NCBI GenBank assembly: GCA_030628225.1
Contig: DAOVRJ010000112.1
Coordinates: 1-7,714 of the forward strand
Source: Candidatus Zixiibacteriota bacterium
Lineage (GTDB): Bacteria > SM23-81
DNA: 7,714 nucleotides
Direction of reading: 5' to 3'
Made by a program: the position numbers and the translations under genes. Positions 2,510 through 7,364 of the stretch are shown piece by piece. Every line of letters starts with the position of its first letter. Position 1 is the first letter of the stretch. The notes below the pieces were generated by a model that had not been told where the DNA came from, made no database searches, and saw nothing but the letters and a program-made list of their open reading frames with translations.

Positions 2510-2698
2510 GTACATGTACACTTATCAGGGAAGATCTGCCTGGAGCAGAGAGAATTTTTCGTTGACTTGCTGCAATTCTTGAATGACATTGTGAGTGAAG
2601 AAGTGGAAAAACCACCGTCGATCGTACTGGAGATACAAATACACATGGTGAGCTCAGCCTTGAAAATCCTCAGCGGCCAGGATTGACTCTTTTTTTTC

Positions 2699-2727
2699 TT
2701 GACTGAGCACTCCTATCAGAGTATAAT
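2699..2727 (+). promoter_or_regulatory. Sigma-70 promoter of the kinase/response-regulator operon
   Basis: TTGACT (2699-2704) and a perfect TATAAT (2722-2727) are separated by the ideal 17 nt. Transcription should start near 2734, leaving a leader of roughly 290 nt before the kinase ATG at 3028. The promoter matches the permease promoter at 6420-6448 in spacing and much of its sequence. Confidence 0.85.
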
Positions 2728-2735
2728 CGTAGTGC
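2707..2735. promoter_or_regulatory. Imperfect operator dyad over the -10 box
   Basis: The half-sites ACTCCTAT (2709-2716) and ATCGTAGT (2726-2733) are complementary at 6 of 8 positions, with outer GC/GC pairs giving GCACT/AGTGC. The dyad is centred on 2721, one base before TATAAT. Aligned on that centre with the perfect dyad at 6428-6456, 20 of 29 bases agree. Its position over the spacer and -10 box suggests repression. The cognate regulator is unknown. Confidence 0.55.
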
Positions 2736-3027
2736 TACCGGCAATTGCTCTTTTTCAGGGTGTGAGAAGCGGAAGAGCGCTTATTTGGAAAGACGATAAC
2801 CGTTGTTTGTACATAGGATAGCGTTTACCGGCGCCGATATTTACTATTTCTGGCAGGCGAGCCAGAGGGGTGAAGATTGGATTGATCATAATGTCCTTGG
2901 CGCAAAGCTCAAGGTGAAAATTTGATGATCACCCAAGGTTGGTACTCAGGTCTCCTACATTCATCTTTTAGCACAAGCGGATAAAGATATCTCCAGTGCA
3001 CGAGCCGCAGAAAGCAGGGAGCATTTC

Positions 3028-5007
3028 ATGCAGCGCTTCTCGCTGAGAACAAAGTTGTTGCTGAGTTTTAGCACAGTCATTGTGGTTAGTGCTTTGCTGT
3101 CATTAATTATCGGCACGTATTTGGTCAAGACGATTATTGCACAGGCGCAAGGCAAGGTGAAGCTGGATCTTAACTCGGCACGAGAGGTGTATCAGGAGGA
3201 AAGCGGGAACATCAAAGACGTGGTCCGGCTGACGGCGGTGAGGTTTTTCATAAAAGATGCCGTATTAAAGGGCCACGGAGAAAAACTGAAGGGGGAATTG
3301 CAAAACATCAGAGACCAGGAGCACCTGGATGTCTTGACCCTGGTCAACCGCCAAAGTCGAGTGATCTTAAGGGCTCACAACCCTGAGGTTTTTGGGGATC
3401 AGCTAAACGATGACGTGGTGAGCCACGTGTTGTCCCGGCAGAAAGTGGTCGTGTCTACTCAGATTGTCTCTAAAGATGATTTGGAAAGAGAAAGCCGTGA
3501 TCTTTTGGAGCGGTCCAGGATAGATCTGATCCCGACTCTCCAGGAGCGGCCCAGAACTGAGACGGAAGAGACCTCCGGCATGATGATCAAAGCAGCGGCG
3601 CCTGTTCTGGATTATGATGGTGAGCTGATCGGGGTGTTGCTTGGTGGAAGGTTGCTGAACCGCAACTATGAGATTGTCGACAATGTGAAGGATATCGTGT
3701 ATCGCGGTGAGAAATATAAGGGAAAAGACATTGGGACGGTGACGATTTTTCAAGGGGATCTGCGCATCTCCACAAATGTGCTGCGTCTGGATGGCGACCG
3801 GGCCATCGGGACGAGAGTGTCTCAGGAGGTGTACGATCAGGTGATAGGGAAGGGTGTCCCCTGGATCGGCCGGGCATTTGTGGTCAACGATTGGTACATA
3901 ACCGCATATGAGCCGATAAAGAATATAAGCGGAAACATCATCGGTATGCTTTATGTGGGGATACTCGAAGCTCCTTATGTGGATTTGAAAAATCGTGCTG
4001 TGCTCACATTTCTGGGAGTAGCTATCTTGAGCGTTACTCTTTTAGCAATAGTAGCGCTTTTTACTACCGAAAACATCACTCGACCGCTGAAAGAACTGCT
4101 GTTTGCCACACAGAAGGTCGCCCAGGGGAATCTTTCTCACCGGTTGCGGGTCAAATCTGGTGATGAGATTGGCCAGTTAGTGGGCTCTTTTAATCAGATG
4201 ACCGGTGAGCTTCAGAAAGCAACAGAGAAATACCAGGTTTTAACGAGAACCCTGGAGGATAAAGTCGCTGAGAAGACGGAGGAACTGAGGAAAGCCCAGG
4301 ATCAGCTTATTCAAACGGCGAAGTTAACATCGCTGGGAAAGTTGGCTGCAGGGATAGCTCATGAGGTGAATAATCCCCTGACGTCCATATTGATTAACAG
4401 CCACCTTGTTGCCGAAAAGCTGAGCGAGGATGACCATTTTCAGGAGAATATGCGATTGATAATCGATGAGACGACACGGTGTGGGGCTATCGTGAAGGGT
4501 CTTTTGGATTTCTCCAGGCAGACTCCGCCAGAGAAGAACATCTCCGATCTCAATGAGGTGGTTGAAAACACCCTGCAGATGTTGAAAAGCCAGATTTTGG
4601 TCCATGAGATCCAGGTGAAGAAAGACCTTGATCGGGAATTGCCGGAGATAATGATCGACGTCAATCAAATAAAACAGGTGTTCACCAACATGATCCTGAA
4701 CGCGTTAGATGCGACGCCTAAAGGGGGCTGGCTGACCGTTCGTTCGCAGATGGCATCCGACAAGCAATTTGTGGAAATCACATTTCAAGACACCGGTCAC
4801 GGCATAGAGAAAGGGAACATAGGCAAGATCTTCGACCCGTTTTATACCACAAAAGGAATGGCGGGAAGTGGGTTAGGACTTTCCGTGAGCTATGGAATCA
4901 TGCGGCAGCACGGGGGAACTATAGATGTGCAAAGCGAGCCGGGGAAAGGAACCACCATGACCATCCAGCTGCCAGTCACTGAGTACCAAGAAGACGAAGC
5001 TGTCTAA
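3028..5007 (+). CDS. Membrane sensor histidine kinase (Cache-HAMP-HisKA-HATPase)
   Basis: This 659-residue inner-membrane kinase should sense an extracytoplasmic small molecule and phosphorylate the regulator encoded next to it. Helix TM1 lies at about 13-35. A large external region (about 36-320) follows, whose second half (LGGRLLN, RAIGTRVSQEVYDQV, WIGRAFVVNDWYITAYEP, IGMLYVGILE) I recognise as the Cache_3-Cache_2 type. TM2 is at about 324-346, then a HAMP domain from about 346 to 398 (ITRPLKEL ... DEIGQLVGSFNQM). A coiled coil precedes the phosphoacceptor His445 in AHEVNNPLTSIL. The ATP-binding domain has the N box (NMILNALDA, N558), G1 (DTGHG, 588-592), the F box FDPFYTTKG and G2 (GSGLGLS, 613-619). 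The kinase core is complete and of NtrB-like type. AGGGAG (3016-3021) lies 6 nt before the ATG. Its stop codon overlaps the ribosome site of the next gene. The ligand cannot be read from the sequence. Confidence 0.93.
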   Translation: MQRFSLRTKLLLSFSTVIVVSALLSLIIGTYLVKTIIAQAQGKVKLDLNSAREVYQEESGNIKDVVRLTAVRFFIKDAVLKGHGEKLKGELQNIRDQEHLDVLTLVNRQSRVILRAHNPEVFGDQLNDDVVSHVLSRQKVVVSTQIVSKDDLERESRDLLERSRIDLIPTLQERPRTETEETSGMMIKAAAPVLDYDGELIGVLLGGRLLNRNYEIVDNVKDIVYRGEKYKGKDIGTVTIFQGDLRISTNVLRLDGDRAIGTRVSQEVYDQVIGKGVPWIGRAFVVNDWYITAYEPIKNISGNIIGMLYVGILEAPYVDLKNRAVLTFLGVAILSVTLLAIVALFTTENITRPLKELLFATQKVAQGNLSHRLRVKSGDEIGQLVGSFNQMTGELQKATEKYQVLTRTLEDKVAEKTEELRKAQDQLIQTAKLTSLGKLAAGIAHEVNNPLTSILINSHLVAEKLSEDDHFQENMRLIIDETTRCGAIVKGLLDFSRQTPPEKNISDLNEVVENTLQMLKSQILVHEIQVKKDLDRELPEIMIDVNQIKQVFTNMILNALDATPKGGWLTVRSQMASDKQFVEITFQDTGHGIEKGNIGKIFDPFYTTKGMAGSGLGLSVSYGIMRQHGGTIDVQSEPGKGTTMTIQLPVTEYQEDEAV

Positions 5008-5021
5008 GGAGGTGGATAGGA

Positions 5022-5810
5022 ATGGAGAACAAAGCGAAGATACTGGTCGTCGACGATGAAGTGCCCGTCTGCAGAAGCATATCCAGTGCGCTGGAACCGG
5101 AAGGTTACCTTGTTGATCAAGCGCTTAGTGGGGAAGAGGCTCTGCAGAAGGAAGGGGAAAACAGATACGATGTGATCATCGCCGATCTGATGATGCCGGG
5201 CATGAGCGGGATGGATCTGTTGCGGGCGGTGAAGGAGAAAAGATCAGATATCGTGGTGATCATGATCACCGGGTATCCATCCATGAAGACAGCGGTACAA
5301 GCCGTTAAACTAGGTGCATTTGACTATTTGCCGAAGCCATTTGCTCCAAGTGAGTTGCGCAATCTGATCTCGCGAGCACTGGAGAGAAAGCGTATCTATG
5401 AGGAAAAAGCGCCGGTGGAGGAGAAGGCAATGGCAAAAACTCCTCTGCCCGAGGGCCTGTATTGTATTCCGGGGCATTCCTGGGCAAAGCTGGAGGACGA
5501 TGGCAACGTGCGCGTGGGAATTCATGAGTTGTATTTGAGAACCGTCAAGAACTTCTCTTCTATAAAGTTCCCCGATGAGAACGAGAAGGTAAGTCAAGGG
5601 GAAACTTGTTTGTGGGTAGTCGATACCGCCGGGAATCTGCACAGATTATGGTCGCCAGTGAGCGGGCGGGTGATCTCGATCAACGAGGAGGTCGAAGAGG
5701 ATTATTCCCGGGTAATGGAAGATCCTTACGGATCTGGATGGTTGCTGTTGATTAAACCGTTGAGGTTCGAGGAGGAGCTGGAGAACCTGCTTCCATTTGA
5801 TAAAGAGTGA
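5022..5810 (+). CDS. Response regulator with GcvH-like output domain
   Basis: This is a 262-residue cytoplasmic protein. The receiver (about 5-125) is complete: acidic pair Asp11-Asp12, phospho-acceptor Asp55 (IIADLMMPGMSG), switch Thr83 (ITGYPS) and Lys105 (YLPKPF). A charged linker (120-141) leads to residues 142-262, which resemble glycine-cleavage H protein. The shared features are HSW (152-154, for HEW), VGI (165-167), SPVSG (211-215) and PYGSGWL (235-241), in the right order and spacing. Counting back from PVSG, the lipoyl-lysine position is Gly204, and there is no lysine between 190 and 244, so lipoylation at that site is ruled out. No DNA-binding motif is present; output is probably protein-protein interaction. 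TAAGGAGGT (5005-5013) is a near-perfect ribosome site overlapping the kinase stop, so the two genes are co-transcribed and almost certainly a cognate pair. Receiver plus GcvH-like proteins are, as I recall, known in anaerobes, but I know no established function. Confidence 0.9.
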   Translation: MENKAKILVVDDEVPVCRSISSALEPEGYLVDQALSGEEALQKEGENRYDVIIADLMMPGMSGMDLLRAVKEKRSDIVVIMITGYPSMKTAVQAVKLGAFDYLPKPFAPSELRNLISRALERKRIYEEKAPVEEKAMAKTPLPEGLYCIPGHSWAKLEDDGNVRVGIHELYLRTVKNFSSIKFPDENEKVSQGETCLWVVDTAGNLHRLWSPVSGRVISINEEVEEDYSRVMEDPYGSGWLLLIKPLRFEEELENLLPFDKE

Positions 5811-5983
5811 AGCTGAGCTCGCGGATGTGCTGGTGCTATTGCGGACTTGTGCGTTAAGATCCCCGGGACGTGCGGGTGAGAGTTCTGAGGTTGATGCCGG
5901 GAAGCATGGAAAGGACCGCCCTGTGCTCGTGCGGTATTTAAAGAGTTGTTTGCTCTTCCATCTTATCTGACCTTGTGTTTGAA

Positions 5984-6007
5984 ACTTCACAGAGATTTAT
6001 CTGAAGT
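5984..6007. promoter_or_regulatory. Small dyad upstream of the ribbon-helix-helix gene
   Basis: ACTTCA (5984-5989) and TGAAGT (6002-6007) form a perfect 6-bp inverted repeat with a 12-nt spacer. It lies about 50 nt before the start of a DNA-binding protein gene. Such a position would suit an autoregulatory operator, but a 6-bp dyad can easily arise by chance. No clear promoter is visible in the 244-nt gap after the response regulator and no strong terminator either, so read-through from that operon is possible. Confidence 0.25.
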
Positions 6008-6054
6008 CTGTAACTACTTTTCATTTACTTGTTGCCGATCTGGAGAAAAAAGTC

Positions 6055-6267
6055 ATGGGCAGCGACAGAGTAACCATCAAAATACCTCGCCAACTGTACA
6101 ATAAGCTGCGCAAGATCATCGATGAGAGCGGTTTCAGCAGCGTCAACGAGTTCATCGTCTATATTTTGCGTGACCTGGTGGCTCTGCAAAGAGAGAATGA
6201 AGACAGCTTAACGCCTGAGGAGGTGAGGTTGCTGAAGGAACGCCTGAAAAAGCTGGGATATCTTTAA
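6055..6267 (+). CDS. Small CopG-type ribbon-helix-helix DNA-binding protein
   Basis: This protein has 70 residues. Residues 5-11 (RVTIKIP) form the expected beta strand that enters the DNA major groove. Helix A follows (about 12-23, QLYNKLRKIIDE), then a turn at GFSSVNEF and helix B (about 28-43). This is the classic ribbon-helix-helix layout of dimeric CopG/Arc/MetJ-like repressors. The C-terminal tail (LTPEEVRLLKERLKKLGYL, 52-70) is a predicted charged helix that may mediate oligomerisation. No toxin gene lies next to it, so an antitoxin role is not supported. GGAGAA (6042-6047) lies 7 nt before the ATG. The neighbouring permease promoter carries a strong dyad, making this protein a candidate regulator by location only. 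Confidence 0.78.
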   Translation: MGSDRVTIKIPRQLYNKLRKIIDESGFSSVNEFIVYILRDLVALQRENEDSLTPEEVRLLKERLKKLGYL

Positions 6268-6288
6268 CCGCGTTGGATCCCCACCGAT

Positions 6289-6308
6289 TTTTGATCCGGC
6301 CATCAAAA
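6289..6308 (+). other. A/T hairpin after the ribbon-helix-helix gene
   Basis: TTTTGAT (6289-6295) pairs with ATCAAAA (6302-6308) around CCGGCC. With a two-base internal mismatch the stem extends to 6285/6312. It lies 22 nt after the stop codon, but no immediate T-run follows (a CTCTTTTTCC run occurs about 20 nt later). It may weakly terminate or stabilise the 3' end. The rest of 6268-6419 shows nothing recognisable. Confidence 0.25.
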
Positions 6309-6419
6309 TCCGCGAAGGATTTCTCTTTTTCCTCTTGAACCATCCTGGACAGCAAAAAACCGGCATATTCCTTGCTTATTAATAAAAAGTGTCTGGCCCT
6401 CGCCCAGCAAATTTATTGC

Positions 6420-6448
6420 TTGACGGGATACTACAATTGGAGTATAAT
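6420..6448 (+). promoter_or_regulatory. Sigma-70 promoter of the TauE-type permease
   Basis: TTGACG (6420-6425) and a perfect TATAAT (6443-6448) are 17 nt apart, a near-consensus promoter. Transcription should begin near 6455, giving a leader of about 85 nt before the permease ATG at 6539. The core GAGTATAAT and following GTAGT are identical to the promoter at 2699-2727. Confidence 0.88.
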
Positions 6449-6456
6449 TGTAGTAT
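6428..6456. promoter_or_regulatory. Perfect 11-bp operator dyad in the permease promoter
   Basis: ATACTACAATT (6428-6438) and AATTGTAGTAT (6446-6456) are perfectly complementary with a 7-nt centre. The dyad is centred on 6442 and covers the spacer, the -10 box and the likely start site. That placement is typical of a repressor site that blocks polymerase. A diverged relative of the same site lies at 2707-2735. I cannot assign it to a known regulator family from the sequence. Confidence 0.8.
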
Positions 6457-6538
6457 AAATGAGCGGCGAATCGTTTTCTCTCTCCAATTTGCTGTTGGGA
6501 TCTTGCCATAGGGCTAAAAGCTGTTCCGGGGGGATCTC

Positions 6539-7342
6539 ATGGAGTTTGTCCCTTATGTCATCATTGCCTTTGTGTGTGAGTTTGTAGACTCGACCATCGG
6601 GATGGGGTATGGCACTACTTTGACTCCGGTGTTGTTGCTCCTGGGTTTTCAACCCTTGCAGGTTGTCCCCGCTGTCCTTTTCTCGGAATTCATAACGGGT
6701 GTACTGGCTGGGCTGATGCATCACCGGGTGGGCAATGTCAGTTTCGATTTCGGAAGGGATGACAGAGTCCGCAAACGCCACCTGCAGGCGCTAGGCTATA
6801 TTCCACGCTCTTTTGATGCCAAGGTCACCTATGTTTTGGTTGTTCTGGGGATTTGTGGTGTTCTGGGGGCGGTTTTCCTTTCCATAAATATTCCGGCGAA
6901 GATCGTGAAGGGATATATTGGGGTGATGATCCTGGCCATAGGCCTGTACATCATCCTGAACATAAACAAAGACAAGATGTTTAGCTGGACCAAATTCAGC
7001 GTTATAGCCGCCCTCAGCGGATTTAACAAGGGCATATCCGGTGGGGGCTATGGTCCCCTGGTCACTGGCGGGCAGGTTGTCTCCGGCCGTTCTGCCAAAA
7101 GCTCCATCGGCAGCACCTCTCTGGCCGAGGGACTCATATGCCTGGTGGGATTCTTGGCCTATATGGTTATGCGAAGAGGGATCTACTGGCAGCTGGCCCT
7201 GCCCCTGCTCATCGGCGCTGTGTTATCCACCCCCCTGGCTGCCCTGGCGGTGAAGAGAATGCCGGAGACGAAGCTAAAATTGATCATCGGCGTCGTCACC
7301 ATGGCCCTGGGCATATTAACCCTCAAAAAATTGATTTTGTGA
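6539..7342 (+). CDS. TauE/SafE-family membrane permease (probable anion exporter)
   Basis: This 267-residue, strongly hydrophobic protein has about seven to eight predicted membrane helices. It shows the two related halves typical of TauE/SafE proteins. The first contains DSTIGMGYGTTLTPVLLL (17 onward) and a conserved helix with VLFSEFITGVLAG. The second repeats this as NKGISGGGYGPLVTGGQ (163 onward) followed by STSLAEGLICLVGF. A charged loop at about 62-92 separates early helices. Family members are linked to export of sulfite, sulfoacetate or other organosulfur anions, and some to uptake; the substrate cannot be settled here. Length is normal for the family. The start follows a weak G-rich site (6528-6533). 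It appears to be a single-gene unit, with its own promoter and dyad at 6420-6456 and a terminator at 7365-7399. The shared promoter design with the kinase operon suggests a related physiological role. Confidence 0.9.
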   Translation: MEFVPYVIIAFVCEFVDSTIGMGYGTTLTPVLLLLGFQPLQVVPAVLFSEFITGVLAGLMHHRVGNVSFDFGRDDRVRKRHLQALGYIPRSFDAKVTYVLVVLGICGVLGAVFLSINIPAKIVKGYIGVMILAIGLYIILNINKDKMFSWTKFSVIAALSGFNKGISGGGYGPLVTGGQVVSGRSAKSSIGSTSLAEGLICLVGFLAYMVMRRGIYWQLALPLLIGAVLSTPLAALAVKRMPETKLKLIIGVVTMALGILTLKKLIL

Positions 7343-7364
7343 GCGTCATAACGGTCTGCTTTGC

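Follow-up and report, generated by a model that had tools for sequence, protein, structure and literature searches.

The locus and its two matching promoters

The window, that is, the whole stretch of 7,714 nucleotides analysed here, is the entire contig C155 of a 2.34-Mb MAG that is 92% complete. On its plus strand, profile matches identified a sensor histidine kinase with sCache_3_3, HAMP, HisKA and HATPase domains (3028..5007), followed by a response regulator made of a receiver and a GCV_H-like domain (5022..5810), a 70-aa ribbon-helix-helix (RHH; CopG/RHH_1) protein (6055..6267) and a TauE/SafE-family permease (6539..7342; PF01925, 103.8 bits against a cut-off of 32.6). The permease had been called an exporter in the initial annotation, a putative role that comes from its TauE/SafE family annotation only. 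No terminator-like site was found on the plus strand from 5811 to 7364, and transcripts from the kinase promoter could therefore run on into the RHH gene and tauE. The GCV_H-like domain of the regulator has a G at the position expected for the lipoyl lysine of GcvH (VVDTAGNLHRLWSPVSG), and its relatives in the same-family genome G001 and at locus L041 are also without a lysine there. Two adjacent GGDEF proteins (918-1472 and 1790-2356) score 140.6 and 92.9 bits, respectively; given its lower score and the motif YAADE in place of YGGEE, the second is probably inactive as a cyclase.

Two core promoters on the plus strand stand out as the top two promoter-like sites of the window, each with 17-bp spacing and 11 of 12 consensus bases. 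That of the kinase operon (2699..2727) consists of a -35 box TTGACT (2699-2704) and a -10 box TATAAT (2722-2727), and that of the permease (6420..6448) of TTGACG (6420-6425) and TATAAT (6443-6448). Direct comparison of 2698-2735 with 6419-6456 bore out the earlier observation that 27 of 38 positions agree, with CTTGAC, ACT, GAGTATAAT and GTAGT identical, and that the flanks are unrelated (15/60 and 11/60 identities, the chance level). The match also goes beyond the promoter consensus, as had been argued, for 16 of the 26 columns outside both hexamers agree (binomial tail 1e-4 at 25% per column). In both sites the centre of the dyad, at 2721 and 6442, does lie one base upstream of TATAAT; the two 11-base arms of the permease dyad match perfectly, whereas the kinase dyad is imperfect. 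The strongest internal signal, which the initial annotation had not mentioned, is a period of 11 bp, with lag-11 matches of 12/30 and 17/30, the highest among lags 7-14.

The operator is a tandem array

When arrays from many genomes were aligned, an 11-bp unit RTACTMYRATT emerged, which, read across its borders, is a 13-bp palindrome ATTRTASTAYAAT centred on S and repeated every 11 bp; this was recognised by inspection and then scored. The single large dyad that had been taken as the operator is therefore better described as a tandem array of three palindromic units (ATTRTASTAYAAT) at 11-bp steps. The kinase operator (2704..2738, not assigned to a strand) holds three 13-bp pseudo-palindromes centred at 2710, 2721 and 2732 and is conserved in G001, and the permease operator (6425..6459, likewise strandless) three 13-bp palindromes centred at 6431, 6442 and 6453. 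The kinase operator, at 27/39, is weaker than that of the permease, at 34/39, and control sequence from the same genome never exceeded 24/39; within the window no further array was found, the next best places scoring 23/39, inside the control range.

The middle palindrome, whose centre is the dyad centre described above, has the -10 hexamer as its right half, and a promoter that shares its -10 box with an operator half-site in this way is compact in design. Of 20 strong arrays for which a promoter could be called, 18 show the same arrangement, with the -10 box starting one base past a unit centre and a -35-like box 16-17 bp upstream; since the unit itself contains a TATAAT-like half, the placement of the -35 box is the informative part of this alignment.

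Genome-wide search and conservation in a related genome

A search of the 2.34-Mb MAG with ACTnCnAT-N9-ATnGTAGT returned two perfect sites, both within the window. With up to 3 mismatches to this 25-base pattern, the number of sites in the whole MAG was not above that of a reversed-pattern control, and weak matches were thus not taken as regulon members. The tandem-unit pattern with up to 2 mismatches likewise found only the two window sites in the MAG (control 0). Since there are two perfect sites only and mismatch hits stay at the control level, this genome appears to have a small, local regulon, as had been suggested. Searched with the array pattern, sixty relatives gave hits near the control level except in G000 and G001, and in G027, G056 and G058 the more distant relatives of the regulator showed no array above that level. 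The sat genes of G000 and G001 are without an array, so in this particular genome it is TauE only that provides the link to sulfur.

In G001 the tandem-unit pattern was found at C31:8304, C87:25043 and C87:16694, together with one weaker site at C27:12098. The first two precede paralogous operons of the order DUF2490 - kinase - regulator (GCV_H) - second regulator - HEAT/WD40 protein - RHH, and the third precedes tauE. Across the five promoters of the window and G001 the bases ACT, AT, AG and GTAGT are invariant, while the flanks agree at 8-24 of 48-60 positions, which is chance to weak similarity. Free drift of the half-site bases in a related genome, the outcome named beforehand as evidence against a shared operator, was thus not what G001 showed. 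Together with the genome-wide search, this conservation gives good support to the proposal that one regulator serves both the kinase/regulator and the permease promoters.

The window also retains a remnant of the DUF2490 gene (2830..2925, plus strand; alignment score 128 against 43 for the best of 300 shuffles) between promoter and kinase, at the place where the gene is intact in G001, which implies that the promoter once belonged to a longer operon. As the window kinase is moreover 66% identical to its G001 counterpart, the kinase promoter is probably that of the ancestral operon. The HEAT/WD40-repeat protein of 1055 aa that is encoded between the regulators and the RHH gene in G001 (L061 456-3623, L062 9213-12380) is absent from the window.

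The RHH protein and its association with the arrays

The protein encoded at 6055-6267 scored marginally above the threshold of PF01402 (RHH_1), with 22.0 bits against a cut-off of 20.5 (E 1.5e-4). Its predicted structure (mean pLDDT 81.6) has helices at residues 12-22 and 30-46 and a third at 54-67, the strand being unassigned in the monomer model; in a structure search several RHH chains ranked high, none of them significantly (E of at least 0.97). In the predicted DNA-contact strand, the positions of which we assume by analogy with Arc, K9 is invariant among the homologues and residue 5 (K/R) and T7 are nearly so. No ligand domain was recognised in the protein, and the scan of the window proteins brought up no second DNA-binding protein. 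An identity as NikR was rejected, as the match reached 17.8 bits against a cut-off of 83 and covered residues 4-50 only.

Relatives of the RHH protein were collected at 35 loci, mostly from Aminicenantes and also from Omnitrophota, Dehalococcoidia, Calditrichaeota, Stahlbacteria, Myxococcales and archaea. A matrix made from four units of the window only was run over the 33 loci outside the G001 genome, and in 26 of them, against 3.6 expected, the best tandem array lay no more than 300 bp from the RHH homologue (P 4e-20). This proximity is tested only within RHH-bearing loci, as these were selected by the homologue itself. Removal of redundancy at >85, 75 or 70% protein identity left arrays near the RHH gene at 17/21, 14/17 and 12/13 loci, respectively. 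With 300 column-permuted matrices a mean of 7.1 loci (sd 3.7, maximum 24) had the best array nearby, an average that measures the AT-rich intergenic bias, and the best mean score was 14.3 against 16.4 for the real matrix. When the spacing of the units was scanned from 6 to 19 bp, 11 bp scored best. At 7 of the 33 loci the best array was not within 300 bp of the RHH gene, and some arrays near it are weak (L026, L034 and L058).

Sulfur genes beside the arrays

Part of the neighbouring genes were named by a family library and several by similarity to genes so tested. On this basis arrays adjoin a sulfate ABC transporter (L027, L030, L037, L045, L050, L051), TauE (L029, L032, L033, L040, L043, L046, L047, L048, L056), ATP sulfurylase with APS kinase (L031), CysD (L048, L052, L060) and a CitMHS/Na-sulfate-symporter-like transporter (L036). 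Locus L041 has the RHH gene, an array and, further along, a response regulator with a GCV_H domain like that of the window. In G004 an identical 19-base element lies directly before sat in a sat - AlkP - RHH - cysC operon and again about 630 bp upstream of tauE on another contig, with no third exact copy, and the two sites likely reflect action in trans. The recurrence of the RHH gene and array as a pair in distant phyla, beside genes for sulfate uptake and activation, suggests a little-studied switch of sulfur metabolism.

Proposed regulation and alternatives

Most likely, both promoters of the window carry the same three-fold site for the small RHH protein encoded between them. We propose that this protein binds both arrays as side-by-side dimers and blocks RNA polymerase in a sulfur-related context, a reading to which we give a probability of roughly 83%. 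One RHH dimer would occupy each 13-bp palindrome ATTRTASTAYAAT, so that three dimers, abreast at 11-bp steps of about one helical turn, would extend from the spacer across the -10 box into the start region and block polymerase at the kinase/regulator promoter and at that of tauE. Since an operator half-site supplies the -10 hexamer, repressor and polymerase would compete for the same bases. That the RHH protein represses is the most likely consequence of the position of the array over the promoter, and the signal, we infer, would be a sulfur-related one. As relatives carry the RHH gene inside the operon that it appears to control, the protein is probably autoregulated, in this genome presumably as well, and in the window its transcription may come by read-through from the kinase promoter.

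The best surviving alternative has some other transcription factor, such as a dimer of the helix-turn-helix type, recognising the long dyad, with the RHH gene no more than a conserved neighbour. The perfect 11-base arms of the permease dyad are what many dimeric regulators bind; however, the tandem periodicity of 11 bp suits adjacent RHH dimers, the RHH gene, on which the loci were selected, occurs in every one of them whereas other neighbours vary, and the scan of the window proteins turned up no other candidate, all of which makes this explanation quite unlikely. Still less likely, in our judgement, is that the RHH protein binds the sites but activates, or organises the DNA locally, rather than represses. 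RHH proteins such as AmrZ, in the account given in PMC3325190, can both activate and repress, yet an array that covers the -10 box and the spacer is in a position that normally blocks polymerase. The response regulator itself might bind both promoters, in which case the two-component system would regulate itself along with the exporter. Its gene lies in the operon, and autoregulation is frequent among such systems, but with a receiver and a GCV_H-like domain only and no domain for DNA binding, and with such a regulator seen in few other array-bearing loci, it makes a very improbable candidate. Finally, two good sigma-70 promoters plus chance, with no operator, would account for the 12 of 38 columns that are promoter hexamers but hardly for the 16 of 26 matches elsewhere, and this explanation is already contradicted by the bases kept in G001 while flanks drift and by the recurrence of arrays across phyla beside RHH genes.

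Comparison with known systems

Repression by RHH dimers would have its closest functional analogue in MetJ, the RHH-family methionine repressor, which binds SAM and recognises 8-bp met boxes. Like MetJ, the proposed regulator would place RHH dimers on tandem short repeats that overlap promoters in a sulfur-related regulon; unlike it, the protein has 70 residues and no recognised ligand domain, and its units scored best at a spacing of 11 bp and not at the 8 bp of met boxes. NikR, Arc and CdrS share the RHH domain, with weak sequence similarity, whereas the window protein has no nickel domain and a different operator and scores far below the NikR and CdrS cut-offs. CysB and CymR also control genes for sulfate uptake and activation, but their folds and operators are unrelated to those of the RHH system.

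A nearer parallel in gene content is PYCH_17520, a putative copG factor that, according to the section of PMC8268124 on this cluster, may regulate sulfate assimilation in Pyrococcus yayanosii. There a CopG-type gene lies beside genes for ATP sulfurylase, APS kinase, a phosphodiesterase and TauE (PMC8268124); in contrast to the system described here it is archaeal, the suggestion is at the level of annotation, that section describes no operator, and the likeness is one of gene content and annotation. Apart from this annotation remark in PMC8268124, the open-access papers searched yielded no RHH regulator of sulfate assimilation, and the sulfur regulon is apparently undescribed. For little-cultured phyla (Aminicenantes, Zixibacteria, Omnitrophota, Dehalococcoidia and others), the arrays offer an operator code, and the RHH protein a candidate regulator, of sulfur acquisition. 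The rule is simple enough for regulon members to be predicted from sequence, and it would tie the sensor kinase pair to sulfur.

A shared C-terminal tail and further neighbours

The RHH proteins end in a tail EE..I..RL..LGY[LFI] (6208-6264 in the window), and the same tail was found at the C-terminus of other recognised proteins of the fetched loci, namely 4 of 5 APS kinases, 2 of 2 CysD and, in a weaker form, 5 of 5 CysA ATPases. Examples are encoded at L019 878-1492 (minus strand), L058 3459-4079, L064 7562-8224, L045 4782-5903, L052 6220-7059 and L060 2532-3347; the tail is absent from the Sat and sulfate-binding proteins looked at in these loci. It is a speculative and rather unlikely idea that the common tail, via a shared partner or by pairing of tails, reports an engaged pathway protein to the repressor. 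If true, such feedback would let the repressor sense how much pathway protein is engaged, a route that we have not seen described.

A second small protein is encoded directly after the RHH gene in L031 (5816-6022) and L048 (3019-3240), and as the one in L031 matches the Arc domain, some genomes may use a pair of small proteins. In L042 and L049 a 4Fe-4S protein adjoins the RHH gene on its downstream side, and L042 also has a NiFe hydrogenase operon, neighbours that possibly mark another branch of the regulon.
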